Source: a virus
DNA length: 20,241 nt
IMG/VR virus record: IMGVR_UViG_3300047641_000075
Location: 1-20,241 of that record
Strand: one strand, 5' to 3'
The stretch's first letter is position 1. Each line of letters starts with the position of its first letter. The position numbers and the translations under genes are program-made. Positions 4,388 through 20,241 of this stretch are shown here, one piece after another. The notes under the pieces are model-generated. The model saw only the letters and a program-made list of their open reading frames with translations, did not search any database and was not told the origin of the DNA.

Positions 4388-4391
4388 CATA

Positions 4392-4410
4392 GGGGAGGAA
4401 ACCAATTTTG
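4392..4410 (+). promoter_or_regulatory. Strong SD that fixes a TTG start for the portal gene
   Basis: AGGGGAGGAA-type SD (4391-4400) lies 7 nt before TTG at 4408. No in-frame ATG occurs nearby, so the portal gene starts at TTG with an unusually long SD that may compensate for the weak start codon. Confidence 0.8.
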
Positions 4411-5823: not shown

Positions 5824-5826
5824 CAG

Positions 5827-6318: not shown

Positions 6319-6384
6319 CGCACCGCAAACGACTGTTCGTCACGACCAGTGATTGCAAGAGCGGCGACCGCGTGCCGCCTAGAT

Positions 6385-6411
6385 GACGCTAATTTGGTTA
6401 GCGTCTTTTTT
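6385..6411 (+). terminator. Intrinsic terminator directly upstream of the coat gene
   Basis: A perfect 8-bp stem GACGCTAA (6385-6392) / TTAGCGTC (6398-6405) with a TTTGG loop is followed by six T (6406-6411). The coat gene's ATG is 19 nt further on, leaving no room for a promoter after the terminator. It probably attenuates late transcription or, alternatively, protects or defines the 5' end of the coat mRNA. Confidence 0.75.
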
Positions 6412-6430
6412 GCTGCCATAGGAGCAGAAT

Positions 6431-7405
6431 ATGCCTTCGAACGATTTTATCACCACTACGGAAGCTGCCGGATTTATACCGGAAATTTGGCTTGGGGTCG
6501 CCCTCGGGCGCCTTAGGAGCTACTTGACCGTGCAAAGGACGGTCACCATGGACTCGGATCTGGAAACAGGCGCGTTCCAGGTAGGACAGGTGCTGCACCT
6601 GCCGAAGCGTGGCGCGCTCACGGTGAACGACAAGACGCAGAACGCCAACTACACAGTTCAAAACCCGTCGTCGTCCACAATCGACCTCACGCTCGATCAC
6701 CATAAAGAGGTGACATTTGCCGTTGAAAGCCGCACGGTCAGCACGGTGAACCAGGACGTCATCCAGGGATATGTGGAGGACGCGGCAATTGCAATTGCGG
6801 AGCAGATCGACACCGATCTCTTCACGCTCTCGGCAAGCGTTCCGAGTGAGCAATCGATCCCGATCACTGCGGCCGGTGTGCCGTCCACAATTACGGAGGG
6901 AGCAATCCAGTCGGCCCGCAAGATGCTGGTCGACAACAAGGTTCCCGCGCCTCAGCGCAAGTACGGCGTGATCGCGACCAGCCAGACCAACGCGCTGTTG
7001 TCGATCGATCGCTTGGTTCGCTACGACGCGCTTGGAGTCTCGAACGACATCACCAACGCCACGGTCGGCAACGGCGTCCGCACCATGGATGCCAGCATCG
7101 GCCGGCTGTACGGGTTTGAGCTCTGTGAGAGCCAATTGGTGCCGACGTCGGGCTCACCTGCCGTCGCTTCGAATCTGTTCTATGCCCGCGATGCCATGTT
7201 GATGGCCACACGCGCGCTGGAGCTTCCCGATCAACGGTACGGGGTGATGGCCACGGTGATGACCGATCCAGACAGCGGGATCACCATGCGCCTCTTGCAC
7301 AGCTATCAGCACATGGCCGGCGGCCACCTCATAACCCTTGACGTCCTCTACGGCTTCACGCTGATGCGGCCCGAGCATATTGTGAAGGTGGTGACCAGCG
7401 CATAG
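6431..7405 (+). CDS. Major capsid protein, P22 coat-like (HK97 fold)
   Basis: The 324-residue protein has the hallmarks of the P22 gp5-like coat family: an N-terminal FIPEIW segment (15-20) followed by a helical stretch; a beta section with GQVLHLPKRG and VNDKT; then DLTLDHHKEVTFAVESRTVS; and the spine helix YVEDAAIAIAEQIDTDLF (114-131). The C-terminal part has RYGVMATVMTDPDSGITMRL and ends in beta strands. It builds the icosahedral shell. AGGAG (6420-6424) lies 6 nt before the ATG. An intrinsic terminator sits just upstream. Coat genes are the most highly expressed late genes, so a separate control element here is meaningful. Confidence 0.88.
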   Translation: MPSNDFITTTEAAGFIPEIWLGVALGRLRSYLTVQRTVTMDSDLETGAFQVGQVLHLPKRGALTVNDKTQNANYTVQNPSSSTIDLTLDHHKEVTFAVESRTVSTVNQDVIQGYVEDAAIAIAEQIDTDLFTLSASVPSEQSIPITAAGVPSTITEGAIQSARKMLVDNKVPAPQRKYGVIATSQTNALLSIDRLVRYDALGVSNDITNATVGNGVRTMDASIGRLYGFELCESQLVPTSGSPAVASNLFYARDAMLMATRALELPDQRYGVMATVMTDPDSGITMRLLHSYQHMAGGHLITLDVLYGFTLMRPEHIVKVVTSA

Positions 7406-7443
7406 CGGCAATCCGTTCACATTTCCGTGAGCACTCGTAACTA

Positions 7444-7535
7444 AGGGGTGGAAAGCAATCTGGCCTTTGTGTGCAGGTTGTTGACCACCCCTCTGTGTGC
7501 GGCAACGCAGCAATGGAGTGCGAATCAAATAGGGG
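7444..7535 (+). promoter_or_regulatory. Inverted repeat and SD region between coat and connector genes
   Basis: AGGGGTGG (7444-7451) and CCACCCCT (7485-7492) are exact inverted repeats separated by 33 nt. The same CCCCT can pair with the connector SD AGGGG (7531-7535), so the left arm and the SD compete for one partner. This could set translation of the connector relative to the coat protein. There is no T-run, so it is not a terminator, and no good promoter was seen in this 136-bp gap. Confidence 0.35.
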
Positions 7536-7541
7536 ATTATT

Positions 7542-8267
7542 ATGAATGTCGACAGCGATGGGTGGCCGACGGTGGCAGCGGTGCTGGCGAGGACGGCGGT
7601 GTTGGGGGATGCAGTGGAGTTGTCTGCCGCGCAATCGGCAGAAGCGGCAGACATTTTGACAGAGGTGATCACACAGTTCCAATCTCCCGCGCCAACAGGC
7701 ACAGGCCGGCGCTTTACTCCGGTTACGGAAACACGGACGTTCGATGGATCGGGGCTTCCGGAGATGCGGGTGCCAGAAATGGTTCCAGGTGCGCCGTTCA
7801 CAGTCTTTGTGTATGAGACGCCGGTCACCGACGTCGTCCAGCGTGCCGATTACCGCGGGTTGGGCGTCACCGTCCTGGCAAGGCCGTTCTCATGTGCCGG
7901 TTCTGGCTTTTTTGCTCCGGCCCTTGGGGATTTCTCGCCGCAGGCGATTGACGGCGTTTTCCCGGCAGGCAAGCAAAACATTATCGTTTCCGCCACGTGG
8001 GGTTACGCGGCGCAGGTGCCCGCAGACGTCGCCATGGCGGTGGCGGGCGAAGCTGCGGCGAGGGTCATGATAGAGGTCGTCGGCGGCAGCGGCGGTATAC
8101 CATCGGTGCTTCGCAGCCGGACGACCGAAGTGCAACAAGGCAATACGCCGTTGGCGCAGACGACGAGCGCAATCACAGCTTGGCGCTCCATCTACCGTGA
8201 TTGTGTGAGACGGTATCGCGACACAGGGCTGTGGAAGCTGGCTGCGATTGCCGGAAGGATGGTTTGA
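7542..8267 (+). CDS. Head-tail connector/adaptor-like protein
   Basis: This 241-residue protein lies just after the coat gene, where the adaptor that docks beneath the portal is usually encoded. The segment FPAGKQNIIVSATWGYAAQVPADVAMAV (140-167) followed by a helix (AGEAAARVMIEVV) is the usual strand-turn-helix pattern of gp6/gp15-type head-tail connector proteins, in which V-P-x-D/E-V introduces a helix. The N-terminal part contains a possible helical bundle (1-47) and the middle is a beta-rich insertion. Start: AGGGGA 5 nt upstream of ATG. Family level confidence is moderate. Confidence 0.65.
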   Translation: MNVDSDGWPTVAAVLARTAVLGDAVELSAAQSAEAADILTEVITQFQSPAPTGTGRRFTPVTETRTFDGSGLPEMRVPEMVPGAPFTVFVYETPVTDVVQRADYRGLGVTVLARPFSCAGSGFFAPALGDFSPQAIDGVFPAGKQNIIVSATWGYAAQVPADVAMAVAGEAAARVMIEVVGGSGGIPSVLRSRTTEVQQGNTPLAQTTSAITAWRSIYRDCVRRYRDTGLWKLAAIAGRMV

Positions 8268-8273
8268 AATCAG

Positions 8274-8714
8274 ATGGGCTCCTCGTATGCAACGCAAATT
8301 GGTGCGCGGTCGGCCATGCTTCTTTCCGCGTTCCGCCAAAGGCTGGGGGTGACGGTGACGTGGCGGGGTCAAAGCTATGCGGCGCTGGTGGATCTTCCCA
8401 CGAGACGGCAGCTCAAGTACATTTCCGGCGGCACGCCTCAGAACGCCGCCGAGCCGGATGTGCGAACCGTCGAGCTCACGCCGGCTGATTTCGACGGCAG
8501 CGTCCCACAGGAAGGCGACACCGTGACGTTGGACGATGGATCTGGCCCTATGGAGTTTGTCATTGGACGATTTGGGACGACGAGGATGGCCGATATCCCA
8601 CAGGGCTACCATCTTCTTGTGTTCCGGCCTGCCCCTGCCGATTCGGCCACGGAGGCGGCTTCAGGCGAGGCCGGTGCGGGCAAGCGGAAATCGGTGGCAC
8701 CGTTGTTGCCATAA
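8274..8714 (+). CDS. Probable head-closure/stopper-type protein
   Basis: The 146-residue product follows the connector by 6 nt and precedes a tail-terminator candidate. A short N-terminal helix (SAMLLSAFRQRLG) leads into beta strands; PQEGDTVTLDDGSGPMEFVIGRF (about 79-101) has the GD-hydrophobic beta-barrel pattern common in phage head-closure proteins. The C-terminal 25 residues are Ala/Gly/Lys-rich and disordered. The ATG at 8274 has a weak SD (GAAATC); an in-frame ATG at 8316 would remove 14 residues. The role is inferred from position and fold pattern; no specific family was recognised. Confidence 0.5.
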   Translation: MGSSYATQIGARSAMLLSAFRQRLGVTVTWRGQSYAALVDLPTRRQLKYISGGTPQNAAEPDVRTVELTPADFDGSVPQEGDTVTLDDGSGPMEFVIGRFGTTRMADIPQGYHLLVFRPAPADSATEAASGEAGAGKRKSVAPLLP

Positions 8715-8759
8715 AGAACGCACGGGCGTGGACAGTCTGCCGTGTTGGGAGAACGAGCA

Positions 8760-9572
8760 TTGGTTACTAATCTCAGTGTGAAAGTATGCAACTGCGCCGT
8801 CCTGCTCACGTGGGACGGCGTGCCAAACGTCACATATTCTGTGGTGCGCACCGATCCAGGGACGTCGTCTTCAAGGTGCATCGCTTCGGGGCTAGTGCGG
8901 CCGCAGTGGTTGGACACCATTGCCACTGGCCTTGCACCCGGCATGGCCGTTGCCTATGGCGTTACAGTGGATGAAAGCGCCGACCCGCCTGCCACGGCAG
9001 ATGCCGTGTTCGGCACACCGAAAAGGACGTTTTTGCCCACGGTGCAAGCCGCGGTGGCGGCGGTGAGGCAGGCCGTGGCCTTTGTCGCCGTGCCGTCGAT
9101 CAATGCCGGGCTCGCTGCGGAGATGGTGCTGCCGTCGTCGTCCCGCCCCGTCCAGTTTGGCGATTCGTCGGTGGTTACAGGCGACTTGCAGGCCGTTTCC
9201 GAGCCAACGCTATGTGTCCGCTTCGAGTCGTTGTCCATGGTGCCCGTGGGGTCGGGCATATACGACCTGTCGATCGACACGGCAATCGTTGTCCGTCTTC
9301 CCAATGCGGGAGACAGCACTCCCGAGGATTACGAGCTTGTGGGGCTGTCCGTGATAGACGCAATCACGCACACGCTTTCGGGCAAGCTTTTCGCCTTCGT
9401 CGCATCGGCCGATCTCGCAACCGGCAAACCCATGTTGCCTGGCACCGCCGTGCTTCAGGACGCTCACGTGATCTCGGCCCGTCGCGACACCGGCGACACG
9501 GTTTCACTGGGAGGCGCAGCGAGGCTGGTGTCCTGGACACTGATTCACCGGTGCTCGATCTCGCAAGGGTAG
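8760..9572 (+). CDS. FN3-domain protein fused to a tail-terminator/completion-like domain
   Basis: I choose TTG at 8760 because GGGAGA (8747-8752) stands 7 nt before it; the upstream in-frame GTG at 8742 lacks an SD. The product then has 270 residues. Residues 1-75 look like a fibronectin type III domain: VTNLSVKVCNC, a tryptophan in LLTWDG, TYSVVR, then IATGLAPGMAVAYGVTV near the end. A helical linker follows (92-112). Residues 125-265 form a beta-rich domain with VRFESLSMVPVGSGIYDLSIDTAIVVRLPN and HVISARRDTGD, and by gene order (stopper before, tail tube after) should be the tail terminator/completion protein. FN3 domains in tail proteins are usually add-ons for surface adhesion. Confidence 0.55.
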   Translation: MVTNLSVKVCNCAVLLTWDGVPNVTYSVVRTDPGTSSSRCIASGLVRPQWLDTIATGLAPGMAVAYGVTVDESADPPATADAVFGTPKRTFLPTVQAAVAAVRQAVAFVAVPSINAGLAAEMVLPSSSRPVQFGDSSVVTGDLQAVSEPTLCVRFESLSMVPVGSGIYDLSIDTAIVVRLPNAGDSTPEDYELVGLSVIDAITHTLSGKLFAFVASADLATGKPMLPGTAVLQDAHVISARRDTGDTVSLGGAARLVSWTLIHRCSISQG

Positions 9573-9576
9573 CGCC

Positions 9577-9609
9577 GGGCCGTTGCCCCTCACGGGCCCT
9601 TTCGTTTTT
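9577..9609 (+). terminator. Intrinsic terminator before the tail genes
   Basis: GGGCCGT (9577-9583) pairs with ACGGGCCC (9592-9599) with one bulged G, loop TGCCCCTC, followed by TTTCGTTTTT. It begins 5 nt after the preceding stop codon and ends 63 nt before the tail-tube start. Confidence 0.7.
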
Positions 9610-9625
9610 CAAGAGGGTATCTGGA

Positions 9626-9642
9626 TTTCGGCATTGCCGAAA
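9626..9642 (+). promoter_or_regulatory. Perfect hairpin in the tail-tube leader
   Basis: TTTCGGC (9626-9632) and GCCGAAA (9636-9642) form a 7-bp stem with a 3-nt ATT loop, 30 nt before the tail-tube ATG. No T-run follows. It may be an mRNA 5'-end stabiliser, a processing site or a protein-binding site. Confidence 0.45.
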
Positions 9643-9672
9643 CGTAAATTCTTAGTTTGATTGGAAACCAAA

Positions 9673-10617
9673 ATGCCAACTACCACTGTATTTCCCAATG
9701 CCTTGTTTCGGCGCGGATTTTCTGGAACAAGCACGTTTGCTACTAATCTGGCGTCGGGCTACGGCACGGCGTACTCATTTCCATTTCGGGACATCAGCCT
9801 CGATATCACCGAAAATTCGGCATCGCCGATCTTGGCGGATTCATCGTCGATCCCGCACAACCGCGTGCTAGGGTTGACGTTGGGGCAGTTGATGCAAAGC
9901 GGGCCGGTGATGCCGGATCGCGGGTGGGCTGGGTTTCTTACCGATGCTTTTGGCCCACGGACAAACGGGTTTTTACCACCTTTTGGGTTGACCTTAGAAC
10001 CCTCGTCAGGTGACACCTCTGCCACCATTGCCGGTGTTTACTGGCAGAAGAGCGTGCTCGAAGGGCGGTTCAGCCAGCGAGGCGACGAGATGCTGATCGG
10101 GTACCAGGCGCATGCGATCGTGTTGGACCCGGCCAATGTCTCGGCTATTTCGCCGCTCACTGCCGCAGCAGGCACGGGGCTGGCGGGTGCTGGCCTGAGC
10201 TCGTTTGCCGCATGTTCGGTGCTCGTCGGCTCTGCCGCAGCGGACGGCATGCGCTCGTTTCGATTGACCCTTGACAATCGAACCCAGGTTCAGCCGGCGA
10301 TGGCAGATACGACGCACCGGATCTCTGCCGGCGCAACGCCTGGGCCGATTGGCGGCGAATTGGTGCTGACGCAGCTTCGAGGCGCGGCTAGCCCGCTGCC
10401 GTCAATCGATGGGGTGTACGGCATCACGCTGACAATTCCCACTGGCGACGGTTCGCATATCTTGACCCTTGCCCTTTCAGTGGCATACGAAAGCGCCGCG
10501 CAGCGGTACCAGGCGGCAGATTTCAATCAGCAGGCGTACACATACTCGCTCTTTGGCACGTCCACCGGCAACGCGACCAATTCGGCTGGATATCCGTTTG
10601 TGGCAAGCTATGAGTAA
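9673..10617 (+). CDS. Probable major tail tube protein
   Basis: The 314-residue protein starts at ATG with GGAAA 5 nt upstream; the frame extends four codons further to a TTG that overlaps this SD and is unlikely. It is beta-rich, low in cysteine and charged residues, and has a regular alternation of hydrophobic and Ser/Thr/Gly residues (TATIAGVYWQKSVLEGRF; FRLTLDNRTQVQPAM; GVYGITLTIPTGDGSHILTLALSVAYE), like phage tube or coat-type proteins. It follows the tail-terminator candidate and is preceded by its own leader structures, as for an abundant protein. Tail tube is the best guess from order and composition; a minor capsid decoration protein is possible. Confidence 0.5.
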   Translation: MPTTTVFPNALFRRGFSGTSTFATNLASGYGTAYSFPFRDISLDITENSASPILADSSSIPHNRVLGLTLGQLMQSGPVMPDRGWAGFLTDAFGPRTNGFLPPFGLTLEPSSGDTSATIAGVYWQKSVLEGRFSQRGDEMLIGYQAHAIVLDPANVSAISPLTAAAGTGLAGAGLSSFAACSVLVGSAAADGMRSFRLTLDNRTQVQPAMADTTHRISAGATPGPIGGELVLTQLRGAASPLPSIDGVYGITLTIPTGDGSHILTLALSVAYESAAQRYQAADFNQQAYTYSLFGTSTGNATNSAGYPFVASYE

Positions 10618-11689
10618 AGCACGGACGTACAGGGTGAGGCGGCGTGTTCGGATCTACCGGCGCCTTCTCGGAGCAAGAAAGGGGGCAGTTGGCCGAGCTG
10701 CCCTTCCGAAGTGGGAATCGCCCGTGCCGCCCTTGCGCTTCGCTGCTAAAACGGCAGATGGAATTGATGTCAAGCTGCTGCCTGCGGACAAGAATGGGCG
10801 GTCGGTGATGTCAACAGGGACGGCGGAGGAAACCCCTGGCAACGTGCCCGAAGTGCCGGTGCGCCTGACGGGCCTAAGGCAGGCGACGATGGTGGGGACG
10901 GGCACGGTGCGGGCGAACACGCCGTCTTCCCCAACATATCCGCAAACGACCAAAGTCCGACCATCCACGAAAAAAAGCGCCCAGCACCGCGCAGACACGG
11001 TAGATGCAGACACGGATCTGGCAGAGTTGGAGCCGCCAGACACAATGTCCAACAGGGCAAGAGCGGAGGCGGCGGCTGGCTCTGCACATGCAATGGCGAG
11101 CGCCGAACAGCAGCAGGAAGGCAGCGTAGGAGCAGATTTAGACCAGGCGGGCACCGAGAGGTTAGACATAATGTCTGTGCCCACTTACAAGGACGATGAG
11201 GGCGACAGATCACTATTGGAAAATGGCCTGGAGGACGATGATCGTGGGGTGCTGCACACCGATATGCTGAGTGTGCGTGGCATGCGAACCCGGGAACCTG
11301 GCGAGACTCCGCGTGTGAGGAAGAACGCGCGGCGGTACGTCGCGAACCCGAGTGAGGCGGCTGCGCATGTCATGCCGTTTTCCGATGACAATGTCAAACA
11401 GGACGCTGCCCCATTTGCCCATGAGGAAGCGGACGCGAACCAGTCGCAAGGCGAAGACGTGTTCGCAAAGTCGCAGTTCCCACGTTCTCCGACAATGGCG
11501 ACGAGCGACACGGCGCAGATATTGGCCGCGCTTGCGCAAATCCAGGAAATCGTCCGGGAGATATTCTCGGAACTGCACACCAGTGGCCGCACGGTTGGTG
11601 GTGTGCCGAGTTTGGGGCATATTGCCGTTGGCGGCGCGTCAATCAATGAAGCGCTCGGCAAGCGGGCCGGGGATGTGCGGCTGAGGTGA
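10610..11689 (+). CDS. Orphan basic/acidic disordered protein in the tail cluster
   Basis: No family is recognised. The ATG at 10610 overlaps the end of the tail-tube gene by 8 nt; the frame is open further upstream, but that region is inside the tube gene. The 359-residue product has three parts. Residues 1-36 are strikingly arginine/lysine-rich (RTYRVRRRVRIYRRLLGARK). Residues 60-300 are low-complexity, Ala/Glu/Asp/Thr-rich and probably disordered, with a repeat (VDADTDLAELEPPDTMS at 131-147; VGADLDQAGTERLDIMS at 173-189). Residues 300-359 hold a helix (TAQILAALAQIQEIVREIFSE) and a glycine-rich tail. By gene order this slot should hold tail chaperones or a tape measure. It has no hydrophobic segments. 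Confidence 0.7.
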   Translation: MSKARTYRVRRRVRIYRRLLGARKGAVGRAALPKWESPVPPLRFAAKTADGIDVKLLPADKNGRSVMSTGTAEETPGNVPEVPVRLTGLRQATMVGTGTVRANTPSSPTYPQTTKVRPSTKKSAQHRADTVDADTDLAELEPPDTMSNRARAEAAAGSAHAMASAEQQQEGSVGADLDQAGTERLDIMSVPTYKDDEGDRSLLENGLEDDDRGVLHTDMLSVRGMRTREPGETPRVRKNARRYVANPSEAAAHVMPFSDDNVKQDAAPFAHEEADANQSQGEDVFAKSQFPRSPTMATSDTAQILAALAQIQEIVREIFSELHTSGRTVGGVPSLGHIAVGGASINEALGKRAGDVRLR

Positions 11690-11692
11690 ATT

Positions 11693-14041
11693 ATGGATTT
11701 GGTGCCTTATCTATCGTTGTCCACCGATGCGCCCATCAATGTGCGGGGCGTGTTGGCTCAGGCAACTTATGAATTTGCCGAGCAGTTTGGCGAGACGGCG
11801 TGCTTGGTGGGCGCGGTCAACTCCGGGTGCAGGATAGATCCGGCGGCTCGCTTGCTCAGCGGACGGCCGTCACCTGTTTTTGCTGATTTTCCCCTGGCTT
11901 CCGAAGCTGCGGGTCCGGGGCAGTGGACAGGGTCGACCCAGGCGGGAACGAACGCTGCGGCGAGCCCCGGATCGTGGGTACTGGTTGCGGACCCAAACAG
12001 CGGCAAAATGGGCGCGCTGATGGACGATTGCAGCGATCCGGTTTCCTTCACACTTGCGCAGACGCCGCCGGCGGGCGGGAATCCGATTTACGACGGGTAC
12101 GGTTACACGGTGGACATTGTTCGCGGCGACCCTCCTGTATCTGCCTCTCGAACACCTTCGGAGACATATCTCATATGGCATCTCGGTACCGGATGGAAGA
12201 TCGAGGCGCGTTACGGTCAACCGTTTGTCCTCTATCAAGACATCGCGAACAACCCGAACAACCCATCATGGGCCGAGATGCGACGCTCGGACGGGTGGGA
12301 GGACAGCGCGGCGTATCTGAAATCGCGCAACGGCCGTCTTAGCCTCACAGTGCTCTGCTATCCTGCGCGCAACACCATTTCGATCAGCATCGGAGGCAGT
12401 GACATCGATTTGAGCTACACCGCTGCGGCCCTCCCGTTTCCATCGGGGCCGTATATGCTGGAAGGGCGCAATGGCAAGGTCAGGGTGCAATTTTGGACAT
12501 TGGGATATCCCGCAACATGGGCGTACACAAGCAAGATGCGCCGCCTGCCCTACGCACCCCAGAATCCGGCGAGCGGTGTGCAAATATCGCTGTGGCCGGC
12601 ACCGACGAACGCTTCCACGGTTGGACACCGGTTTTTCAACGTCAACCCTCCCGTTTCTCAGCCTTATCCCAATGGCTGTGCCGCCACTGTTTTGGCCGTT
12701 GCGGCCGTTGCTGACGCGACGTATTGGAACTACGTGATCACATGCACGGCACCGGCCACCAATGTGGACGGCAGCTCGCCCTTTTCTCCGGTGCTCGATT
12801 GGGTTTCCGTGAATTTTCCGTCGATATCCTATACCGCGACTTACTCGATGCCGGTCAAAGTGACGCCCGTGCGGGTCGAGCCTCATCTGTTCTTCGACTG
12901 GAACACGCTGACGGGCACGGCGTACTGCGATATAACGCTTGACAACAGCCGGGGCCAAAACTCTTTCTTTTCCGGAATGCGGGCTGGCACATTGACATTG
13001 GGCTGGCAACTGCCCGACGGAAGCGTCGTTTCCTATCCGTATCTGTCCGGATGGTTTGGCGAGACAAACGAGTTCATAAGGGCTGATCCGCAGCGGTTGA
13101 GCCGACACCGGATGTACGACATGACATACCCTCTGCGGGTGAACGCTTGCGGGGAGCTGGGATGGTTCGACGGATGGTGCATTTACGCGGCGATGCGATT
13201 TCTCGCGGAGGCCGGCGGCGTGATGTCCGACCCGACGTCGTTTGACTGGCTTCAGTACGTGCCACAAGGCACCGCCGGCCCGTGTGCAAGTGGGCCGAAC
13301 CCGACTGGCTGCACACATCCGCAAATTCCGTTCACGCCCGGAGTGAGGCCGCGTTGGCAGCCGAACCAGTCGGCGTCGCTCTGGAGCGAGATGGTGCGGA
13401 TTGCCGTTCGCTATCGGCAGGTGCTGGGAGGTGATCAGAACGGCTACTTGCGCACAGGTGCCTATGCCAGCAACACGGGAGTGCCATATCTTGGAAGTTT
13501 GGGCATGGCCATGTCACCAGCGCTGTTTCAGTTTCAAGGAGCAGGGACGTCGACCATTGCGGGGCTGCCGTACCTCAACGAGTTTGACGGGGAGCTGAGA
13601 GCGGTGGTGAGCGTTGCCGACGTCCGGTCGAGTGTGTCGCTTGTCGGGCGAGATCCGCAGGATTGGGGGCCGTTAGCCGTCACCGACAGCGACAATTACA
13701 CCAGCGTGGTTTTAGACCCGACGTCCCCGATCCATCGCGGCTTTCCGTGCGCAATGGTAGATCTTGATCCGACGTTCACAGATACGGCGTTCATGGAGAG
13801 CGCTGCGGCATTGATTTCGCAGCAGTGTGCAATTCCCACTCTGAACGTTGATTTCGGGGCGATTTTCCAGCCGAACCTGTTTCTGCATCAGACGGTGGAC
13901 GTTTTTGATCCGCTCGTGCTCGGCATCGCACCGATCACGTGCCAGGTAATGGGAATCGACGGCGATTTTGGCCTTGACCCGCACACAAAACGGACGGTGT
14001 GCAAATGCCGGATTATGGCGAAGTCCGTGGTGAACTGGTGA
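11693..14041 (+). CDS. Large tail protein, possible distal tail/hub component
   Basis: The 782-residue protein starts 3 nt after the preceding stop codon. It is beta-rich throughout. Residues about 100-285 look like a jelly-roll/lectin-like sandwich (ETYLIWHLGTGWKIEARYG; RNGRLSLTVLCYPARNTISI). The second half has SGMRAGTLTLGWQLPDGSVVSY, WFDGWCIYAAMRFLAEAGG and a C-terminal LGIAPITCQVMGIDGDF segment. There are 16 cysteines, unusually many for a phage structural protein, including CxC near the end (VCKCR). Position between tail-tube and fibre-type genes suggests a distal tail or hub protein, but I recognise no domain that proves it. No tape-measure features (long coiled coils) are present. Confidence 0.6.
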   Translation: MDLVPYLSLSTDAPINVRGVLAQATYEFAEQFGETACLVGAVNSGCRIDPAARLLSGRPSPVFADFPLASEAAGPGQWTGSTQAGTNAAASPGSWVLVADPNSGKMGALMDDCSDPVSFTLAQTPPAGGNPIYDGYGYTVDIVRGDPPVSASRTPSETYLIWHLGTGWKIEARYGQPFVLYQDIANNPNNPSWAEMRRSDGWEDSAAYLKSRNGRLSLTVLCYPARNTISISIGGSDIDLSYTAAALPFPSGPYMLEGRNGKVRVQFWTLGYPATWAYTSKMRRLPYAPQNPASGVQISLWPAPTNASTVGHRFFNVNPPVSQPYPNGCAATVLAVAAVADATYWNYVITCTAPATNVDGSSPFSPVLDWVSVNFPSISYTATYSMPVKVTPVRVEPHLFFDWNTLTGTAYCDITLDNSRGQNSFFSGMRAGTLTLGWQLPDGSVVSYPYLSGWFGETNEFIRADPQRLSRHRMYDMTYPLRVNACGELGWFDGWCIYAAMRFLAEAGGVMSDPTSFDWLQYVPQGTAGPCASGPNPTGCTHPQIPFTPGVRPRWQPNQSASLWSEMVRIAVRYRQVLGGDQNGYLRTGAYASNTGVPYLGSLGMAMSPALFQFQGAGTSTIAGLPYLNEFDGELRAVVSVADVRSSVSLVGRDPQDWGPLAVTDSDNYTSVVLDPTSPIHRGFPCAMVDLDPTFTDTAFMESAAALISQQCAIPTLNVDFGAIFQPNLFLHQTVDVFDPLVLGIAPITCQVMGIDGDFGLDPHTKRTVCKCRIMAKSVVNW

Positions 14042-14044
14042 GCT

Positions 14045-14482
14045 ATGAAAAAATCGGCTGCGGCAACTGGGAGAACAGTGACGGCTTCCTGCACGGTCAC
14101 GGGGACGGCGGCGTGCAACTGGCGGGCAACAACAACGTCCACCGGCGCGGCGCCTTCGGGGTTCGGGTCGATCGCGGACGAGTTTGTGACGGTGCCGGGG
14201 ATCGGAACCGTGGTTGGCGCGCAGGCGCTCGGCTTCGGGCTGACGTTCCTGCCGACGGGAATGGACCATCCCACCAACGGCCAGGCCACCGGCGTTGCGC
14301 TGTACCTGTCCACCAGCGACCCTGCCGATTCGCCGCTCTCGTGGAGCACCGTTATCGGTGGATCGACGGTCAGCGCGCCAACGGGCATAATCCTCGTTCA
14401 GAACTTCGGCGGGGTGCCCGCGCCTCCCAGCGGCACCGGCGCGAACCAGACGTACGGGGGAACGTTCTCGTATTCACGATGA
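14045..14482 (+). CDS. Hypothetical beta-rich tail protein, upstream half of a coupled pair
   Basis: Unknown family, 145 residues. The N-terminus is Lys/Thr/Ala-rich (MKKSAAATGRTVTASCTVTG); the rest is beta-rich (GFGLTFLPTG, ATGVALYLSTSDPADSPLSW, TGIILVQNFG) with a proline/glycine turn near the end. It begins 3 nt after the previous stop codon (GGTGAG-type SD in the gene end) and ends in a TGA that overlaps the next ATG (ATGA). A second frame is also open across this gene, but its translation is Arg/Gly-biased and not protein-like. The G+C content is visibly higher than in the genes before it. It is probably a short tail or receptor-associated protein. Confidence 0.6.
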   Translation: MKKSAAATGRTVTASCTVTGTAACNWRATTTSTGAAPSGFGSIADEFVTVPGIGTVVGAQALGFGLTFLPTGMDHPTNGQATGVALYLSTSDPADSPLSWSTVIGGSTVSAPTGIILVQNFGGVPAPPSGTGANQTYGGTFSYSR

Positions 14483-15411
14483 CACTGACCGTGACGGCGG
14501 CTGAGCACCTCTCGTTCGACGAGCCGGTGTACATGCAGCACCGCGCGACGTACCAAAACCTCGTCACCGGCGTCACCGTCTCATGCGGGCCTGCAAGCTA
14601 CACGTGGTCGGGCTATCCCGGCACGGAGCCGATGCCTGCGAACCTGGACTATTGGCCCAGCTTCACGACCGGACTGTTCGTGGCGTGCAACAACGGGGCC
14701 AGCTCGTCGGCGTCAATGGGGGTGAGCCTGTCGAGCACGGCGGACTTACAGTTTCAGCCTGCGGCGGGGCTTGCGGCGAAACCCTGGCCGCTGGAGTATG
14801 TCGGGGGCACCGTTCCGATCACAGGAACGCCTGTCACGATCAAGAATCTCTTGGTGACGGGCAGCGCAAGCGGCTACAGCCAGAGCGTAGCGCTGCAATA
14901 TTGCAGCACGAACCCCTACCCAGGTGAGTTTGCCGACAGCTACTACAGCGCGTCAGACCCCGGCTTCTTCGGCGCGGGACATTCCACGGTGACGTGGCAG
15001 CCGAAGAACACGCAGGTCTCGGTTGACGAGCAGCTAATCAGCGGCGTCGCCACAAGCCCGATGACGCCGAAGGTCGCGGCATGGCTTGCGGCGACGAACG
15101 CGGCCAACGTGGGCGGCACCGAGGCGCTTGGCGGCCCGCCACAGCCGTTCGTGATGTATGTCGACACTGGCAGCGGGCTTCCTTCCTATGTCATGGGGCT
15201 AGGAATTGTAGGCCCGGCAACGTCCTGGTCTCAGGTGACGCTCGACCCTTACAACCAGACGGAATACCCGAACGTGTCGGGCACGCAGCCCTACGAGTTC
15301 GGCTGCCTCAGCTTCCCGATGGACACGGCACTGGTGAAGGTGGGCTCGGTGACGCTGACCAGGCCAAACCCGAGCAGGGCGGCGGTGACGGTGGGCTGGA
15401 CGCTGGGGTGA
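14479..15411 (+). CDS. Hypothetical beta-rich tail protein, downstream half of a coupled pair
   Basis: Unknown family, 310 residues from the ATG that overlaps the preceding stop codon by four bases. It is beta-rich with many Ser, Thr, Gly, Tyr and Pro residues (GVTVSCGPASYTWSGYPGTE; STVTWQPKNTQVSVDEQL; VKVGSVTLTRPNPSRAAVTV), typical of baseplate or fibre-associated parts. A longer reading of this frame back to 13999 overlaps two other genes and looks non-coding before the ATG at 14479. The arrangement favours translational coupling; a minus-one frameshift joining both proteins is an alternative. The gene is followed by the promoter region of the toxin-antitoxin cassette. Confidence 0.65.
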   Translation: MTLTVTAAEHLSFDEPVYMQHRATYQNLVTGVTVSCGPASYTWSGYPGTEPMPANLDYWPSFTTGLFVACNNGASSSASMGVSLSSTADLQFQPAAGLAAKPWPLEYVGGTVPITGTPVTIKNLLVTGSASGYSQSVALQYCSTNPYPGEFADSYYSASDPGFFGAGHSTVTWQPKNTQVSVDEQLISGVATSPMTPKVAAWLAATNAANVGGTEALGGPPQPFVMYVDTGSGLPSYVMGLGIVGPATSWSQVTLDPYNQTEYPNVSGTQPYEFGCLSFPMDTALVKVGSVTLTRPNPSRAAVTVGWTLG

Positions 15412-15429
15412 GCGAGGGGTTGGATGGAC

Positions 15430-15486
15430 GGGAGTGTTTACCCGCCGCTGGGAGTGTGGTAAACTATTTACGCAGTACGCTAAAAT
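15430..15486 (+). promoter_or_regulatory. Promoter/operator region of the toxin-antitoxin cassette
   Basis: Direct repeats GGGAGTGT occur at 15430-15437 and 15450-15457, exactly two helical turns apart. Inverted GTTTACC (15436-15442) / GGTAAAC (15458-15464) and the short palindrome GTAAA-cta-TTTAC (15459-15471) overlap them. A promoter could be TTTACC with 17 nt to TAAACT (15437-15465), or use TAAAAT at 15481-15486 as the -10. Overlap of dyads and promoter fits autorepression by the antitoxin. Confidence 0.5.
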
Positions 15487-15510
15487 GTTGGTACAAAGCG
15501 AAGAAGCAGG

Positions 15511-15555
15511 CGATGAGGTAAAAAACGTGAGGCTGCGAACGTATGTACCTCATCG
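15511..15555 (+). promoter_or_regulatory. 10-bp inverted repeat in the antitoxin leader
   Basis: CGATGAGGTA (15511-15520) is exactly complementary to TACCTCATCG (15546-15555), with a 25-nt loop that itself contains two ACGT blocks. It lies between the promoter region and the antitoxin start and could be an operator or a leader hairpin that limits translation. Confidence 0.55.
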
Positions 15556-15573
15556 AAGCGGACCGTGGCCACA

Positions 15574-16101
15574 ATGTACAGAGAAGACAAAGCGACACAA
15601 CTTGCGGGATATCTCATCACGAGGGCAGGAGGAAAATGTAATTACACTGTCCTTCTCAAGATGCTGTACGCGTGTGACCGTGCCATGATCGAGACGTGGG
15701 GAATGCCGATCACCTATGATAAATGGGTCTCGATGCATTGCGGCCCGGTTCTTAGCGCCACATATGACCTAATAAAGAGGGCAAACCGAGGGCGAAGCGT
15801 GTGGAGGGACTATATCCGAACCGAGGGCTACAACGTCACGCTGATAACAAATCCAGGTGAGGAAATGCTGTCGGATGCAGAGATTGAAATTGCCAACAAG
15901 GTCTTTTCGGTCATGGGAGGGATGCAGTATGGAGAGGCGATCGAGTTGACGCACCAGAAGTTTCCTGAGTGGACTGACCCAGGCGAGACAAGCGTGCCTA
16001 TTTCTGTTTCGGATATGCTTGGAGCGATGGAGCAAGCGGGCGACGAATATGTCAACGAAGTAGAATCGCACTTTCAAGCTAATGAGTTGTTAGCACCTTA
16101 G
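15574..16101 (+). CDS. Panacea-domain (DUF4065) antitoxin
   Basis: The 175-residue protein matches the Panacea/DUF4065 pattern over its whole length: YREDKATQLAGYLITRAGGK, then LLKMLYACDRAMIETWGMPIT (27-47), the family hallmark HCGPVLSATYDLIK (55-68), LSDAEIEIANKVF (99-111) and ELTHQKFPEW (124-133). Panacea proteins such as PanA and SocA are antitoxins or adaptors that neutralise unrelated toxins. I start at ATG 15574, which places the YREDKATQ segment at the N-terminus as in relatives; GTG at 15565 would add three residues. The next gene begins 6 nt after the stop codon and encodes a MazF/PemK-like protein. The DNA is more A+T-rich than the flanking tail genes, suggesting acquisition as a unit. 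Confidence 0.88.
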   Translation: MYREDKATQLAGYLITRAGGKCNYTVLLKMLYACDRAMIETWGMPITYDKWVSMHCGPVLSATYDLIKRANRGRSVWRDYIRTEGYNVTLITNPGEEMLSDAEIEIANKVFSVMGGMQYGEAIELTHQKFPEWTDPGETSVPISVSDMLGAMEQAGDEYVNEVESHFQANELLAP

Positions 16102-16107
16102 GCGTTT

Positions 16108-16512
16108 GTGTTTATTCAGGCTGGAAGCGTTTTTCTTGCACGGCTGCCGTATGGCTCACCCAAGGACCATTGCTGTATATGCCTTACGGACAATGGCGGC
16201 ATGAGCGACTCTGTATTCGTCGTGCCAATAATGTCACCTACGCCAAAATGTGACCGCACGACTGTTCTCGCGACTGCTGATATTCCAGACTTTCTCAAGT
16301 ACGACTCCTATGTGTCATACACGCATTTAGTTGAGATGGACGTCACTACCCTTTCTACAAAAATCGTCCGTCATTTTTCACCCGTTTCCAAAGAAGTGCT
16401 CAAGCGTGTAATTGATGGCGCTTTTTCCTCACCTTTGACGGCAAGGGGCTATAGACAGTGGTTCAAGGATCGACTTGAAGAAAACGCCAAGGATGACGCC
16501 GGAGCGAAATAG
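16108..16512 (+). CDS. Putative MazF/PemK-like toxin of the Panacea cassette
   Basis: This 134-residue protein starts at GTG, 6 nt after the antitoxin stop codon. The pattern is that of the PemK/MazF SH3-like barrel: GSVFLARLPYGSPKDHCCICL (6-26), VFVVPIMSP (36-44), TTVLATADIP (51-60), then DSYVSYTHLVEMD (66-78) and SKEVLKRVIDGAFSSPL (94-110). MazF-fold toxins are mostly mRNA endonucleases. The typical MazF arginine in the first loop (GxxR-P) is not clear, so activity may differ or another target may apply. A weak AGG SD and the tiny gap imply translational coupling to the antitoxin, which would keep toxin output low. Fold assignment is from pattern only. Confidence 0.6.
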   Translation: MFIQAGSVFLARLPYGSPKDHCCICLTDNGGMSDSVFVVPIMSPTPKCDRTTVLATADIPDFLKYDSYVSYTHLVEMDVTTLSTKIVRHFSPVSKEVLKRVIDGAFSSPLTARGYRQWFKDRLEENAKDDAGAK

Positions 16513-16548
16513 CCTGCCTCCGTGGACGCTAAACATCAATATTGTAAG

Positions 16549-16625
16549 AGCCGACCTGCTCTGGAGCTTCCATCTGAAGCGTCCGGGGCTTTTTTGTTGC
16601 CCAATCCCGCACAGCGGGCCTTTTT
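16549..16625 (+). terminator. Tandem terminator-like hairpins after the toxin gene
   Basis: First hairpin: GGAGCTTC (16563-16570) with GAAGC-G-TCC (16576-16584), enclosed by AGCC/GGCT (16549-16552 with 16587-16590) and followed by T6 (16590-16595). Second: CCCGC-aca-GCGGG (16606-16618), then CC and T5 (16621-16625). They would insulate the cassette but also stand 44 nt before the next tail gene's start. Confidence 0.5.
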
Positions 16626-16640
16626 CTCCCGCAGGTAGTG

Positions 16641-16650
16641 CTTCCGGAAG
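16641..16650. repeat. 10-bp palindrome before the 746-residue tail gene
   Basis: CTTCCGGAAG is a perfect 10-bp palindrome. Its last six bases plus one (GGAAGG, 16646-16651) look like an SD but stand too far (17 nt) from the ATG at 16669; they sit beside a six-codon mini-frame (ATG 16652, MLRAAK) whose stop overlaps that ATG as ATGA. Confidence 0.3.
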
Positions 16651-16668
16651 GATGTTGCGAGCGGCGAA

Positions 16669-18909
16669 ATGATCTATTCTCAGTCACAATCTGAGGTCGC
16701 GGGCCTGCCGGCGGATCTCGGGTGGTACCGGTACTGCCAGGTGACGGCGGCGACGCAGGGGTGCGATGTCTGGTTCGTCGTGTGCGGACGATACTACCTG
16801 CTCACCAACAAAATCGCCGAAGGCATCGGCGGTGATCCGGACACGTACCTGATCGACCTTCAGTTGCAGCAGACTCCGCCTGGCAACGTTGCCGCGCTGG
16901 TTTGCCCGGCGAACGGGATCTTGGCGGCAGTGGACTCGCCGGCGCAACCCGTGACGGTCACAAGCTGGCAGTTCGGCTCTGCGGACGCGTTTATCGCTGC
17001 GACGGTGCCGATCTCCGAGCGCGGCGCGATGGTGCAGTACTCTCCGATGACGTTCGACCAGAGCGACGGCGCGGGGCTTGCGGGCGATTCCGGCGCGTAC
17101 ACCGTGGAAGGCCAGGCGAAATACCTGCTCTACCTGTGGGACGATGGCATTCTGAGGCTCACGCAGCCTGACGGCACGGGAAGCGGATGGAGCACGTTCT
17201 CATGGATCTTGGTGTCGGCGTTGATTGCGGCGGTCAACGCGATGTACCCCTACGCGGCAACAAGCGAATGGGCCGAGGGCGCACTTTGGACGGACGATTC
17301 GGGGAACCCGCTTTCAGACACGACTGTGCGGTCGCTGGACGTGCTCGACTTTGACGAGGAACGGCCAACGGCTAACGTCTATCAGTCGTTCGGCGAGAGC
17401 GTCACAATCGACTATGGGCCGCGCATACGGGTGGTGCGGTACGATCCAGGCGTTTGGGACTACGGCACAAACCGGACGGGCGCGGTGACAACGCCGCTGA
17501 TACAGCTTCGTGTGCGGTGGGCGAGCGTCGTGGAGGGATTGGTACTGCCGTCAAATGCACCCAGTGCGAGCCCTCTCGAGCCAACTGTCGGCGTGAGCAT
17601 GCTGCGGTACATGCTGACCGATCCGGCGCTGCCGGCTGCGCCGTACGACCCCATTTCGGCACCACGACTCGAAAGCACGAGCTGCGATGCGCTTGGTTTC
17701 TATGCAATTCCCGCCGTTTTGCCCTTTGGGGAGTTGTCAGCCTCAGATCCAATGCGGCGTCCGTTGCCATGGATCGATCTTGGTGCCATCGTGCCGTCGC
17801 CATCGACGGACGGACGGGCGACTCACCGGTTCATAATCCAGAACGCCGTCGTCCCGTTTGTGGATTTCATCATGCGGACAGTCTTGGTGGTCGAGCCCGC
17901 CGGTGGGCGATCTGTGGTGACCGGATCGATGGCTGGCAAGGTTTCATTGTGGCCGTCGCTCGACCTTTACGAGGATTGGCCTGCGCAGAATGTCTGGTTC
18001 AAAGGCCAAATGGGCGAAGGTTTGGATGCACTTTCGCTGCAACAGAACGGGCTGGTCGTGGCATTCTGCGCAAGCGCGACCGGCACTGGGCAGACGGAAG
18101 TCTATTATCTGACCCGCACGTATCTACAAGTAGACCCGCAACATCCACCGAACGTCGCCCTTGCGTTTCTCGGCAAGGTGCCCGGCCTTCAGCCCTCGCT
18201 CTTTATAAGCGATTATGCTGGCGACGTCTTCTTGCAATGTGGTGGGCGAGTTTACGCTGTGGATGTTGCGATGGGAACCGTGACTGAATCGGATCGTTAC
18301 GGTGCGCTCGCTGCAGGAGGCGACACGTTCCAGGCGTTTGCTGCGGTTTCCGGGGCGTTGTGGATCGCATCGGAAGTGGATAAGGCAGATGGCTTTGGCG
18401 GCATTTCGCTGGTCTCTTCTGACAATGGATCATCGACAAACAGAGTGACCGTTACGCCGATTTCGGGGCTGACAAACGTCGGCCGCCCCAGGATCTGCTA
18501 CGACCCTTCCACTGCCGTGGCATTGATGTTCTATCTGGAGAGACCGCTGGGATGGACTCCGGGCAATGTCGAGAACCTCCGGGTATTGGTGTCTTACGAT
18601 GGGCTGTCCACCTGGCAAACGGGGAAGTTCAGCGGCGGGACAATCAGTGCGAACGACGGCGTTCTCGATGGCGGTGCGCTGCTTCAAACGACTGCGCCGC
18701 CTCCGGTGGAACTTAGCGGCGGATCAAACTGGCAGCAGTGTGGCGGCGACGATGACTTGATCGACCAGATACCCGAGCAGTGGATATCTGCCTGTGCCGA
18801 AAGCCAGCAGGTGACGGCGAGCTGGTTCGACATATACGGCAAACTCTGCGTCAAGACATGGGCAGGGCCGAACCAGGCGACAAACGTGGTGGATGGTGGA
18901 ACATTATGA
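16669..18909 (+). CDS. Large tail/receptor-binding protein with Asp-box-like motifs
   Basis: The 746-residue product is beta-rich. The first 400 residues (for example DVWFVVCGRYYLLTNKIAEG and QAKYLLYLWDDGILRLTQPDG) resemble tail or baseplate sheets without a recognised family. From about 440 to 655 the sequence looks like a beta-propeller: repeated four-strand blocks (GLDALSLQQNGLVVAFCAS, SLFISDYAGDVFLQCGGRVY, TFQAFAAVSGALWIASE), with Asp-box-like SSDNGSST (583-590) and VSYDGLSTW (641-649). Asp boxes occur in sialidases and other glycan-binding propellers; catalytic arginine triads were not identified, so binding is more likely than hydrolysis. The stop codon overlaps the next ATG (ATGA). SD before ATG 16669 is weak. 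Confidence 0.6.
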   Translation: MIYSQSQSEVAGLPADLGWYRYCQVTAATQGCDVWFVVCGRYYLLTNKIAEGIGGDPDTYLIDLQLQQTPPGNVAALVCPANGILAAVDSPAQPVTVTSWQFGSADAFIAATVPISERGAMVQYSPMTFDQSDGAGLAGDSGAYTVEGQAKYLLYLWDDGILRLTQPDGTGSGWSTFSWILVSALIAAVNAMYPYAATSEWAEGALWTDDSGNPLSDTTVRSLDVLDFDEERPTANVYQSFGESVTIDYGPRIRVVRYDPGVWDYGTNRTGAVTTPLIQLRVRWASVVEGLVLPSNAPSASPLEPTVGVSMLRYMLTDPALPAAPYDPISAPRLESTSCDALGFYAIPAVLPFGELSASDPMRRPLPWIDLGAIVPSPSTDGRATHRFIIQNAVVPFVDFIMRTVLVVEPAGGRSVVTGSMAGKVSLWPSLDLYEDWPAQNVWFKGQMGEGLDALSLQQNGLVVAFCASATGTGQTEVYYLTRTYLQVDPQHPPNVALAFLGKVPGLQPSLFISDYAGDVFLQCGGRVYAVDVAMGTVTESDRYGALAAGGDTFQAFAAVSGALWIASEVDKADGFGGISLVSSDNGSSTNRVTVTPISGLTNVGRPRICYDPSTAVALMFYLERPLGWTPGNVENLRVLVSYDGLSTWQTGKFSGGTISANDGVLDGGALLQTTAPPPVELSGGSNWQQCGGDDDLIDQIPEQWISACAESQQVTASWFDIYGKLCVKTWAGPNQATNVVDGGTL

Positions 18910-19409
18910 CGTTGGCGACAATACAGATTAGGCGGGGCGCGTACGCGAATCTGCCGGTTTTGGCCGATGGCGAGATTGGCTTTACCGAGGACAAGGCGGC
19001 CCTCTGGATTGGCAGCGCTGCGGCCGGAGCGAACGTGAAGGTAACAGCGCGCTGGGCCGGGCCCTACTCGCCGTCGTCGGTGTACGATCCATACGACTTG
19101 GTGACGTATGCAGGCGGACTGTATATATGCGTCGTTACAAGCTCCGGCAACGTTCCGACCAACGGGGCCTGCTGGGCAGTGCTCGCGCCGCCGCTCGCCG
19201 GCTTGCTGCGCCGGCAGAAGGACTGTTTCGCAGTGTCGGGTGACGCCTACACGCTCTCGCAGACACCGAACGGGGTGCTCACGGACATCTATTTCGACGG
19301 GGTGCTACAGGCTGACAGCACGTACACCTATACGGGCTCGGCGCTGACCATAGCAGGAACGGTCAACCTTGCGCTGGTGAGCCAGATCTGCTTTGCCTAC
19401 ACGTGGTAG
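18906..19409 (+). CDS. Short tail protein with an Mtd-N-like start and carbohydrate-binding-like module
   Basis: The 167-residue protein starts at the ATG overlapping the preceding stop codon. Residues 5-36 (TIQIRRGAYANLPVLADGEIG, then FTEDKAALWIG) fit the short N-terminal repeat of major tropism determinant-like and many other phage fibre proteins, which attaches them to the tail. Residues 50-93 (W-x-Y-xxxx-VYDPYDLVTYAGGLYICVVTSS and W90) have the spacing of aromatic residues seen in CBM5/12-like chitin- or glycan-binding modules. A third beta segment follows to the end. It probably helps recognise the host surface. No diversity-generating retroelement (reverse transcriptase or template repeat) is seen in this window. 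Confidence 0.7.
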   Translation: MTLATIQIRRGAYANLPVLADGEIGFTEDKAALWIGSAAAGANVKVTARWAGPYSPSSVYDPYDLVTYAGGLYICVVTSSGNVPTNGACWAVLAPPLAGLLRRQKDCFAVSGDAYTLSQTPNGVLTDIYFDGVLQADSTYTYTGSALTIAGTVNLALVSQICFAYTW

Positions 19410-19503
19410 AAAGCCCGACACTTTCACTCAACCTCTCTACCCAGAAGATGGTGCCTTTCTCCTATGCGGGGAGACGTGAGAAAACGCAGAACTGCTCTTA
19501 CAT

Positions 19504-19556
19504 CCCTTCCTTTTTAGGGAAGGGACCGAGGGTTAGGTTCCGATGGGCCTTTCCCT
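19504..19556 (+). promoter_or_regulatory. Mutually exclusive hairpins before the tail-fibre gene
   Basis: CCCTTCC (19504-19510) pairs exactly with GGAAGGG (19518-19524). The overlapping AGGGAAGG (19516-19523) can instead pair with CCTTTCCCT (19548-19556) with a bulge, which would fold the ATG at 19543 and its upstream AGG into a loop. Only one of the two can form. Neither is followed by a T-run. Confidence 0.35.
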
Positions 19557-20241
19557 GTACGTGAAGACTCAAGAAAGAAACAGCATGAACAGATGCTTTA
19601 AGATGTTGGCGGTCACTGGCCTCGCGGCCTTTTTTGTTGCGCCCTGCCATGCGCAGCAGACGATCAACGGCGGGATCGTCCGGGCCGGGACGCTGCCTGT
19701 GGGGGCGATATCGGCTACCGGCACAGCTTCCGGAACGACGTTCCTGCGGGGCGACGGTTCCTGGCAGGTTCCGGCTGGCGGCGGATCGGGGACGGTGACC
19801 AGCGTCGCAGGGCCGTCGTTCATCGACTGGCTCCTCTCCGGCACGAGCTACACGGGCTCCTACGCCACAGGGCTGACAAGCAACGAGTACGACGTGCTCG
19901 GCGTCGACGGGAGCGGCAACGCGGGTTTGTACCCGATCACCGCTTCCTGGCTGCCAGCCAGCGGCGTTACGGCGGGGACGTACACGAACCCCACGCTCGG
20001 CATTGACGCGACCGGGCGCGTGATCGCGGCGAGCAGCGGGGTCGGGAGCACGGTGCTTCCGGCGGTCGCCGCGGCCACGTCGAACCAGGCCAACTCCGGC
20101 ATCGGCACCGGAGTGACCTACGGCACGGTGGCTCATGAGAACTCGTACCACACGACCGGCCTGGGCACGTTCACGCTTGGAATCACATGTGCGAACGCGA
20201 ACGACTTCGTGCTCGTGACGGCGGACACCGGCGCGAACGTG
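19543..20241 (+). CDS. Tail fibre protein with signal-peptide-like N-terminus (partial, runs off the window)
   Basis: The frame is open to the last base; the C-terminus is missing. ATG at 19543 has AGG 5 nt upstream and gives 233 codons here; ATG at 19585 gives 219 and begins a classic secretion-signal shape: MNRCFK, hydrophobic MLAVTGLAAFFVA, then PCHA-QQ as a cleavage-like site. After it come fibre motifs: ASGTTFLRGDGSWQVP (49-63, counted from 19585), GGGSGTVTSV, and GVTAGTYTNPTLGIDATGRVIAAS (128-150), both common in phage tail-fibre shafts. The protein should bind the host surface. A Sec-type signal is unexpected on a virion part assembled in the cytoplasm; see findings. Fibre assignment is firm, start choice is not. 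Confidence 0.78.
   Translation, partial: MGLSLYVKTQERNSMNRCFKMLAVTGLAAFFVAPCHAQQTINGGIVRAGTLPVGAISATGTASGTTFLRGDGSWQVPAGGGSGTVTSVAGPSFIDWLLSGTSYTGSYATGLTSNEYDVLGVDGSGNAGLYPITASWLPASGVTAGTYTNPTLGIDATGRVIAASSGVGSTVLPAVAAATSNQANSGIGTGVTYGTVAHENSYHTTGLGTFTLGITCANANDFVLVTADTGANV
19618..19635 (+). terminator. Terminator-like hairpin inside the fibre's signal-like codons
   Basis: GGCC-TCGC-GGCC (19618-19629) is followed at once by T6 (19630-19635). As DNA it is a short intrinsic-terminator shape; as codons it encodes GLAAFF of the putative signal peptide. The stem is only 4 bp, so termination efficiency would be low. Confidence 0.3.

Follow-up and report, generated by a model that had tools for sequence, protein, structure and literature searches.

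The window analysed here is a whole linear virus record from IMG/VR (IMGVR_UViG_3300047641_000075) of 20,241 bases, and its last gene encodes a fibre-like protein that begins with a predicted Sec signal peptide. The 3' end of this gene is missing, since its frame runs off the end of the record. The main features are as follows (positions are those of the window):

1 to 957, minus strand: cation diffusion facilitator gene, named from the annotation of plasmid matches (about 40% identical)
2,909 to 4,387, plus strand: open frame of the terminase large subunit (Pfam/PHROG searches); the true start is probably further in
4,408 to 5,823, plus strand: portal protein (phrog_64, 8e-11)
11,693 to 14,041, plus strand: 782-aa tail-region protein, signal peptide not called
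16,669 to 18,909, plus strand: 746-aa tail-region protein with no Pfam or PHROG family match, signal peptide not called
18,900 to 19,409, plus strand: tail protein upstream of the fibre, with an Mtd_N domain (PF18454) and a tail-fibre PHROG match, signal peptide not called
19,504 to 19,524, plus strand: hairpin CCCTTCC-TTTTTA-GGGAAGGG between the Mtd_N gene and the fibre gene
19,543 to 19,584, plus strand: optional 14-residue N-terminal extension MGLSLYVKTQERNS, if ATG 19,543 is used
19,585 to 19,653, plus strand: predicted Sec signal peptide MNRCFKMLAVTGLAAFFVAPCHA, if ATG 19,585 is the start (from the score and shuffles given below)
19,654 to 20,241, plus strand: mature fibre-like part, 196 residues visible, 3' end missing
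19,741 to 19,764, plus strand: FLRGDGSW fibre motif
19,963 to 20,019, plus strand: GVTAGTYTNPTLGIDATGR module (YTN..DAxGR)

The window, which carries terminase, portal and tail genes, most likely represents part of a prophage, because another locus, L012 (19,555 bases), is identical to positions 1-14,306 and reaches 5,249 bases further left, where it carries bacterial-type genes. The cation diffusion facilitator gene is a probable host flank of the prophage. Assignment of the host through a flanking aldo/keto reductase failed, as its best 80 matches listed (60-68%) are spread over many phyla. Left of the prophage, L012 also has a 931-aa open frame (13,928-16,723 of L012), probably a host gene, the C-terminal part of which resembles, by eye, secreted parallel beta-helix proteins. 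The nearest isolated phages to the terminase large subunit are about 30% identical and include Thermus phages and Tunturi_4. An identical copy of the 782-aa tail-region protein is present in IMGVR_UViG_3300047660_000018, and no relatives of the 746-aa protein were found in IMG/VR or among isolated phages. Inside the tail gene region, at 15,565-16,512, a gene with a SocA/Panacea antitoxin domain (PF13274, 7e-18) is followed by a 134-aa gene with a PHROG match of unknown function, in a stretch of low GC content (0.50 at 15,501-16,500); the two genes, presumably paired, have the look of a moron encoding a Panacea-type toxin-antitoxin system. The hairpin occurs once in the window, and its exact stem was present in one of the 250 loci compared, the window itself. 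It was rejected as a terminator or REP element, not being listed as terminator-like and having no second copy in the window, L012 or the other loci. No composition shift was found in the window at the fibre gene.

Read from ATG 19,585, the fibre starts with MNRCFKMLAVTGLAAFFVAPCHA followed by QQ, an N-terminus of the Sec/signal peptidase I type with a positively charged n-region, an uncharged hydrophobic core (MLAVTGLAAFFVA) and the c-region PCHA. Cleavage is predicted between A23 and Q24 (C21-H-A23/Q), with the small residues C at -3 and A at -1. A lipobox ends in Cys and has a small residue at -1; in VAPC the residue at -1 before Cys is Pro, and by eye the lipoprotein (SPase II) reading was rejected. 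A Tat signal was rejected as well, no twin-arginine motif being seen by eye.

Signals were scored with a home-made n/h/c model, in which a call is made at a score of at least 10.5 and the signal length is limited to 32 residues. In a calibration on E. coli K-12, this score was reached by 17 of 20 exported, 2 of 42 cytosolic and 12 of 19 inner-membrane proteins; because of the latter, proteins with further membrane segments were screened out separately. With a score of 13.05 and a signal of 23 residues the window fibre passes this screen, and none of the 18 other window frames scored was called. Shuffled sequences reached the score in 34 of 5000 cases for residues 2-70 and in 17 of 5000 for the whole protein (0.3-0.7%). 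The first-pass annotation had placed an export signal and fibre motifs on one gene starting at 19,543 or 19,585 and extending to 20,241. The frame, coordinates and motifs are as it described and the hydrophobic core is present from either ATG, but the gene is incomplete, being cut by the record end. Its suggestion that the 14 extra residues from ATG 19,543 would weaken the signal found no support, since the added stretch is net positive (K and R against E) and would only lengthen the n-region, with the core unchanged. The prediction that it recommended for both starts gave a call from ATG 19,585, but the longer start yields a signal of 37 residues, which the length limit rejects; FimC, in the calibration set, is a real signal with a long n-region (15 residues before the core). 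Inspected by eye, the position of a Shine-Dalgarno-like stretch favours ATG 19,543 (TTAGGTTCCG-ATG) over ATG 19,585. The calibrated score, the rarity among shuffles and the unchanged core thus indicate that this N-terminus is more than chance, yet it is a prediction.

The remainder of the protein has the marks of a tail fibre, namely sequence modules shared with other fibres and a location directly behind the Mtd_N/tail-fibre gene. Among these shared sequences, L165 matches at 51% over 45 aa; residues 1-219 gave no Pfam and no PHROG match (E 0.1). No relatives were found in the isolated-phage collection or in a scan of genome contigs. Searches of 12, 398 and 194 genomes matched 0, 11 and 3 genomes, respectively, and all matches were weak and on inspection were judged to be chance or RHS-type repeats. 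A search of IMG/VR for AQQTINGG-type N-termini returned two stretches, both unrelated matches out of context. Two small contigs (L095 and L096), which by eye resemble PRD1-type (double jelly-roll) viruses, were chance pattern matches.

The FLRGDGSW motif is common to the IMG/VR fibres L002-L009, and by eye none of the six with a visible start has a signal. The YTN..DAxGR pattern was found in at least 120 IMG/VR stretches. Among the matches listed, a signal was called on 6 of the 99 motif-sharing fibres with a defined start and not on the other 93, so that, judged from these sequences, the signal is a minority add-on. Conventional fibres with either motif therefore resemble the window fibre in their body motifs and differ in that nearly all are without a called signal. 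Homologues without a hydrophobic start had been named in advance as grounds for abandoning export; most motif-sharing fibres do start in this way, but this does not show inactivity of the signal in the window fibre. Five of the six calls are convincing (L115, which is lipobox-like, L135, L166, L182 and L208) and that in L164 is weak. In 80 of the 120 loci listed, the frequency of signals on motif fibres (5/64) did not significantly exceed that on other ORFs of 200 aa or more (9/302, p = 0.078). Locus L135 has two adjacent signal-bearing fibre-type genes between a tail-fibre-like gene and lysis-type genes (neighbours named by eye). Flags in L164, L126, L129, L145, L163 and L175 were judged false or of membrane type. 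Two further observations concern IMG/VR loci. L182 encodes, at 4,394-5,056, a 220-aa protein with a strong signal peptide among genes that by eye are portal- and capsid-like. The IMG/VR contig L250 carries four consecutive fibre- or spike-like genes with called signals (2,426-7,461), the last of which is homologous to the ORF114 spike of Tunturi_4.

Through one of the motif-sharing viral fibres, the comparison was extended to Tunturi_5, an isolated phage. Four of the five isolated phages of Tunturiibacter (soil Acidobacteriota) were found to carry signals on genes of the tail region that encode fibres, spikes or virion proteins, with as many as six such genes in a row; Tunturi_1 and Tunturi_2 are close relatives, and the scans covered parts of Tunturi_1, 2, 4 and 5. 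The earlier judgement that export of a fibre is unexpected thus holds in that signals on fibre-like proteins are unusual, but the window is not a unique case. In Tunturi_5, six consecutive tail-region genes (ORF337-342; annotated as three tail fibres, one virion structural protein and two hypothetical proteins) all have strong signals. Signals were called on ORF12, 13, 14, 16 and 17 of Tunturi_2 and Tunturi_1 and on ORF113 and ORF114 of Tunturi_4. In Tunturi_3, none of the 31 CDS of the structural region was called, and 2 of 32 further CDS were flagged, one being an annotated lipoprotein. Several other flags were judged false or of membrane type: ORF323 and ORF327 of Tunturi_5 (8 of 31 flagged in all), 26,547-27,206 of Tunturi_4 (1 of 28 in its first region) and the 44-aa ORF18 of Tunturi_2. 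Domains on the signal-bearing Tunturi proteins (GDSL lipase with LamG; CHB_HEX_C; a pectate-lyase fold and a beta-helix, the last two below the Pfam cut-off) point to predicted glycan-directed functions, and 2 of the 14 Tunturi proteins searched had a PHROG match.

The window fibre gave no homology match to the Tunturi stretches compared at E 0.5, and its link to them is one of architecture only, an N-terminal signal on a tail-region fibre, without sequence homology; the signal-bearing fibres of Acidobacteriota phages are a grouping made in this analysis. The closest counterpart is Tunturi_4 ORF113 (PP885687, 83,651-85,018, annotated as 'tail protein'), which likewise has a signal, a short linker and a DAxGR-like module (VTFDAKGRATS) and lies in the tail region behind a small signal-less fibre-type gene; in contrast to the window fibre it is complete, with 455 aa and eight cysteines in the mature part, and has no detectable homology to it. 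ORF337-342 of Tunturi_5 and the five genes of Tunturi_1/2 are similar as tail-region genes with Sec-type signals, but they form multi-gene runs with some enzyme-like domains, whereas the window shows one such gene before the record ends.

The signals of these genes are conserved. In the spike family of Tunturi_4 ORF114, all four members found (Tunturi_1/2 ORF17, counted once, Tunturi_4 ORF114, L249 and L250) have a signal, with bodies 33-58% identical. In ORF114, L249 and L250 the signal stands directly before the shared spike domain; in Tunturi_2 ORF17 that domain begins at about residue 486 and the signal is still at the N-terminus. Signal-like starts also occur in L249 for the families of Tunturi_2 ORF14 and ORF16, the ORF14 homologue being judged by eye as the model rejects Arg before the cleavage site and made no call. 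Conversely, the signal-less ORF112 of Tunturi_4 has a head starting at Met1 whose counterpart in Tunturi_5 ORF337 and ORF341 follows immediately after the signal (0 of 1000 shuffles each), and this head also matches Tunturi_2 ORF13 behind its signal (0 of 1000); ORF341 and ORF13 compared directly were equalled by 182 of 1000 shuffles. A search with the fibre-head pattern PxxG..WG..N.NF, which is probably too strict, returned no stretches. Judged from the retention in the spike family and from a fibre head found both behind signals and without one, signals seem to be modular parts that, once present, are retained. The idea of a fusion that borrowed a surface-protein start gains from this in its modular part, as supported by the ORF112 head for comparable genes.

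The signal-bearing proteins also differ in cysteine content from chosen signal-less structural proteins of the same phages: 85/4108 versus 21/5199 residues in Tunturi_2 (5.2-fold, p = 3e-14), 28/1180 versus 41/7435 in Tunturi_4 (4.3-fold, p = 3e-8) and 50/4585 versus 56/8836 in Tunturi_5 (1.7-fold, p = 0.005). Cysteine counts are even in 22 of 24 hand-picked signal-bearing proteins and in 20 of 54 signal-less motif fibres (Fisher p = 5e-6; the controls were 73 complete fibres, 54 of them with any cysteine). Counted once per family, 15 of 17 are even (p = 2e-4), and with every called ORF included, also doubtful ones, the difference is weaker but in the same direction (23/31 versus 20/53, p = 0.0016). 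The parity set holds cysteine-bearing proteins, leaving out L115, for its lipobox cysteine, and two small cysteine-free Tunturi_5 proteins; it omits flags judged false and the convincing non-fibre calls L184 and L188, and includes the uncalled 871-aa protein of L249 and the 220-aa non-fibre protein of L182. This set, the signal lengths and the families were fixed by hand, and the proteins are partly non-independent. In all six pairs of the spike family, cysteines are better conserved than other residues (11/20 to 19/22 versus 34-54%), although cysteines are often better conserved in general. The pattern would fit disulfide folding in an oxidising compartment outside the cytoplasm. The window fibre itself has one cysteine in the 196 visible residues of an incomplete protein, and several signal-less window proteins are as cysteine-rich as the signal-bearing Tunturi proteins.

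A phage protein with a Sec signal and an exported enzyme of tailspike fold are already known. Lys44 of phage fOg44 is described as an endolysin exported with a true Sec signal (PMC6116005); it shares with the window fibre a Sec signal peptide on a phage protein and differs in being a lytic enzyme. WceF of Pantoea stewartii combines a tailspike-like fold with an export signal (PMC7949094) and acts on exopolysaccharide, as in the case considered here, but it is a bacterial gene with a Tat signal encoding a beta-helix hydrolase. In a limited search of the PMC literature, no description of tail-fibre cassettes being exported came up. The Tunturi paper's main text, so far as available, has the word 'signal' in a reference title only and lacks 'tail fib'.

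On balance, the window gene probably encodes an exported, glycan-directed fibre or adhesin acting outside the cytoplasm, although our confidence in this is moderate. In the proposed mechanism, a prophage tail-region protein of fibre or adhesin type would be exported by the host Sec machinery, its signal would be cleaved after PCHA, and the protein would fold and work outside the cytoplasm. It would most likely be directed at surface or matrix glycans and made late in infection, and may work like the signal-bearing fibre and spike genes of Acidobacteriota phages. Export, glycan target, oligomeric state and timing of the window fibre are what we infer; the observations themselves are an N-terminus resembling a signal, fibre motifs, a gene position directly after a tail gene and, on comparable genes of other phages, signals that recur and are conserved. 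The glycan-type domains on the signal-bearing Tunturi proteins are the reason for favouring a glycan-directed fibre. Points against export are the 93 of 99 motif fibres, among the matches listed, that were not called, the lack of a detected signal-bearing homologue of the window fibre, the non-significant excess of signals on motif fibres, and the cysteine picture in the window, with one cysteine in the visible mature part and several cysteine-rich proteins that have no signal.

The accepted view is that tail fibres are both produced and attached in the cytoplasm; in T4, fibres attach in vitro to finished particles. A virion fibre with an extracytoplasmic step, which after export would be oxidised and form trimers in the periplasm or on the cell surface and join the tails only when virions leave at lysis, is the foremost alternative, though we regard it as doubtful. 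Signals are carried by Tunturi_2 ORF13 and ORF14 (annotated as tail fibre, pectin lyase or, in Tunturi_1, tail spike; both above 125 aa), ORF12-17 of Tunturi_2 are flanked by a tail gene on one side and the endolysin gene on the other, the head domain of Tunturi_5 ORF337/341 recurs on a signal-less Tunturi_4 protein, and the even, conserved cysteines suit such a route. Docking after release would also fit Tunturi_1/2, as the parts covered (bases 1-45,000 of 63,277 and 1-40,000 of 63,169) show no signal-less annotated fibre or spike above 125 aa. However, a signal-less 'tail protein', 'lytic tail protein' or 1307-aa 'virion structural protein' of Tunturi_2 could bind the receptor, Tunturi_4 has, next to its signal-bearing fibres, a 912-aa tail fibre that lacks a signal, and the Tunturi paper, in its main text so far as available, mentions neither mass spectrometry nor SDS-PAGE. 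The membrane-held fibre for late assembly proposed in the first-pass annotation survives in part, since late assembly outside the cytoplasm would fit the cysteine data. That Sec-exported fibres and spikes of some phages acquire disulfides while folding in the periplasm or on the cell surface, docking on virions only during lysis, the window fibre being one of them, is put forward as a speculative extension, slightly less probable again.

An ordinary cytoplasmic virion fibre, with an N-terminus that is only signal-like or a true start further downstream, is unlikely. Most motif-sharing fibres start without a called signal, and 17 and 34 of 5000 shuffles do reach the score; yet the three signal regions follow one another as expected up to a cleavage site with small residues, and conserved signals recur on comparable genes. 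Rather improbable, too, is a decoy, adhesin or superinfection-exclusion factor secreted by the lysogen, that is, a moron with its own expression unit. A separate intergenic stretch with a hairpin precedes the gene, and bacterial-type genes border the record, which makes a prophage probable. The single promoter-like site in 15,200-20,241, where one promoter type was scanned, nevertheless lies on the minus strand (15,205-15,234). For the class as a whole, a role confined to the lysogen, one of the options first raised, becomes less likely because comparable genes lie in tail regions of plaque-isolated phages and the Tunturi paper, in the part available, reports integrase or recombinase genes for no isolates other than Tunturi 3-5. 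Least probable is a host secreted protein with fibre-like modules encoded beyond the prophage end: the intergenic hairpin and separate start, a record ending before the right end of the prophage, and host enzymes with tailspike fold and export signal, such as Tat-exported WceF (PMC7949094), would allow it, but the fibre motifs are common to viral contigs, composition does not shift, and no convincing relative was found in 398 Pseudomonadota and 194 Verrucomicrobiota genomes, a weak point as the host phylum may differ.

The exported, glycan-directed fibre or adhesin is thus the reading preferred here, and the data suggest that export of fibre proteins from the cytoplasm occurs in some phages. 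Where fibre-like genes form runs and combine conserved signals with disulfide-type cysteines, this would imply a second route beside cytoplasmic assembly, comprising either phage adhesins or enzymes exported to act on the host matrix or parts of the virion completed outside the cytoplasm. As the cultivated phages Tunturi 1, 2, 4 and 5 and their hosts exist, the question is directly testable.
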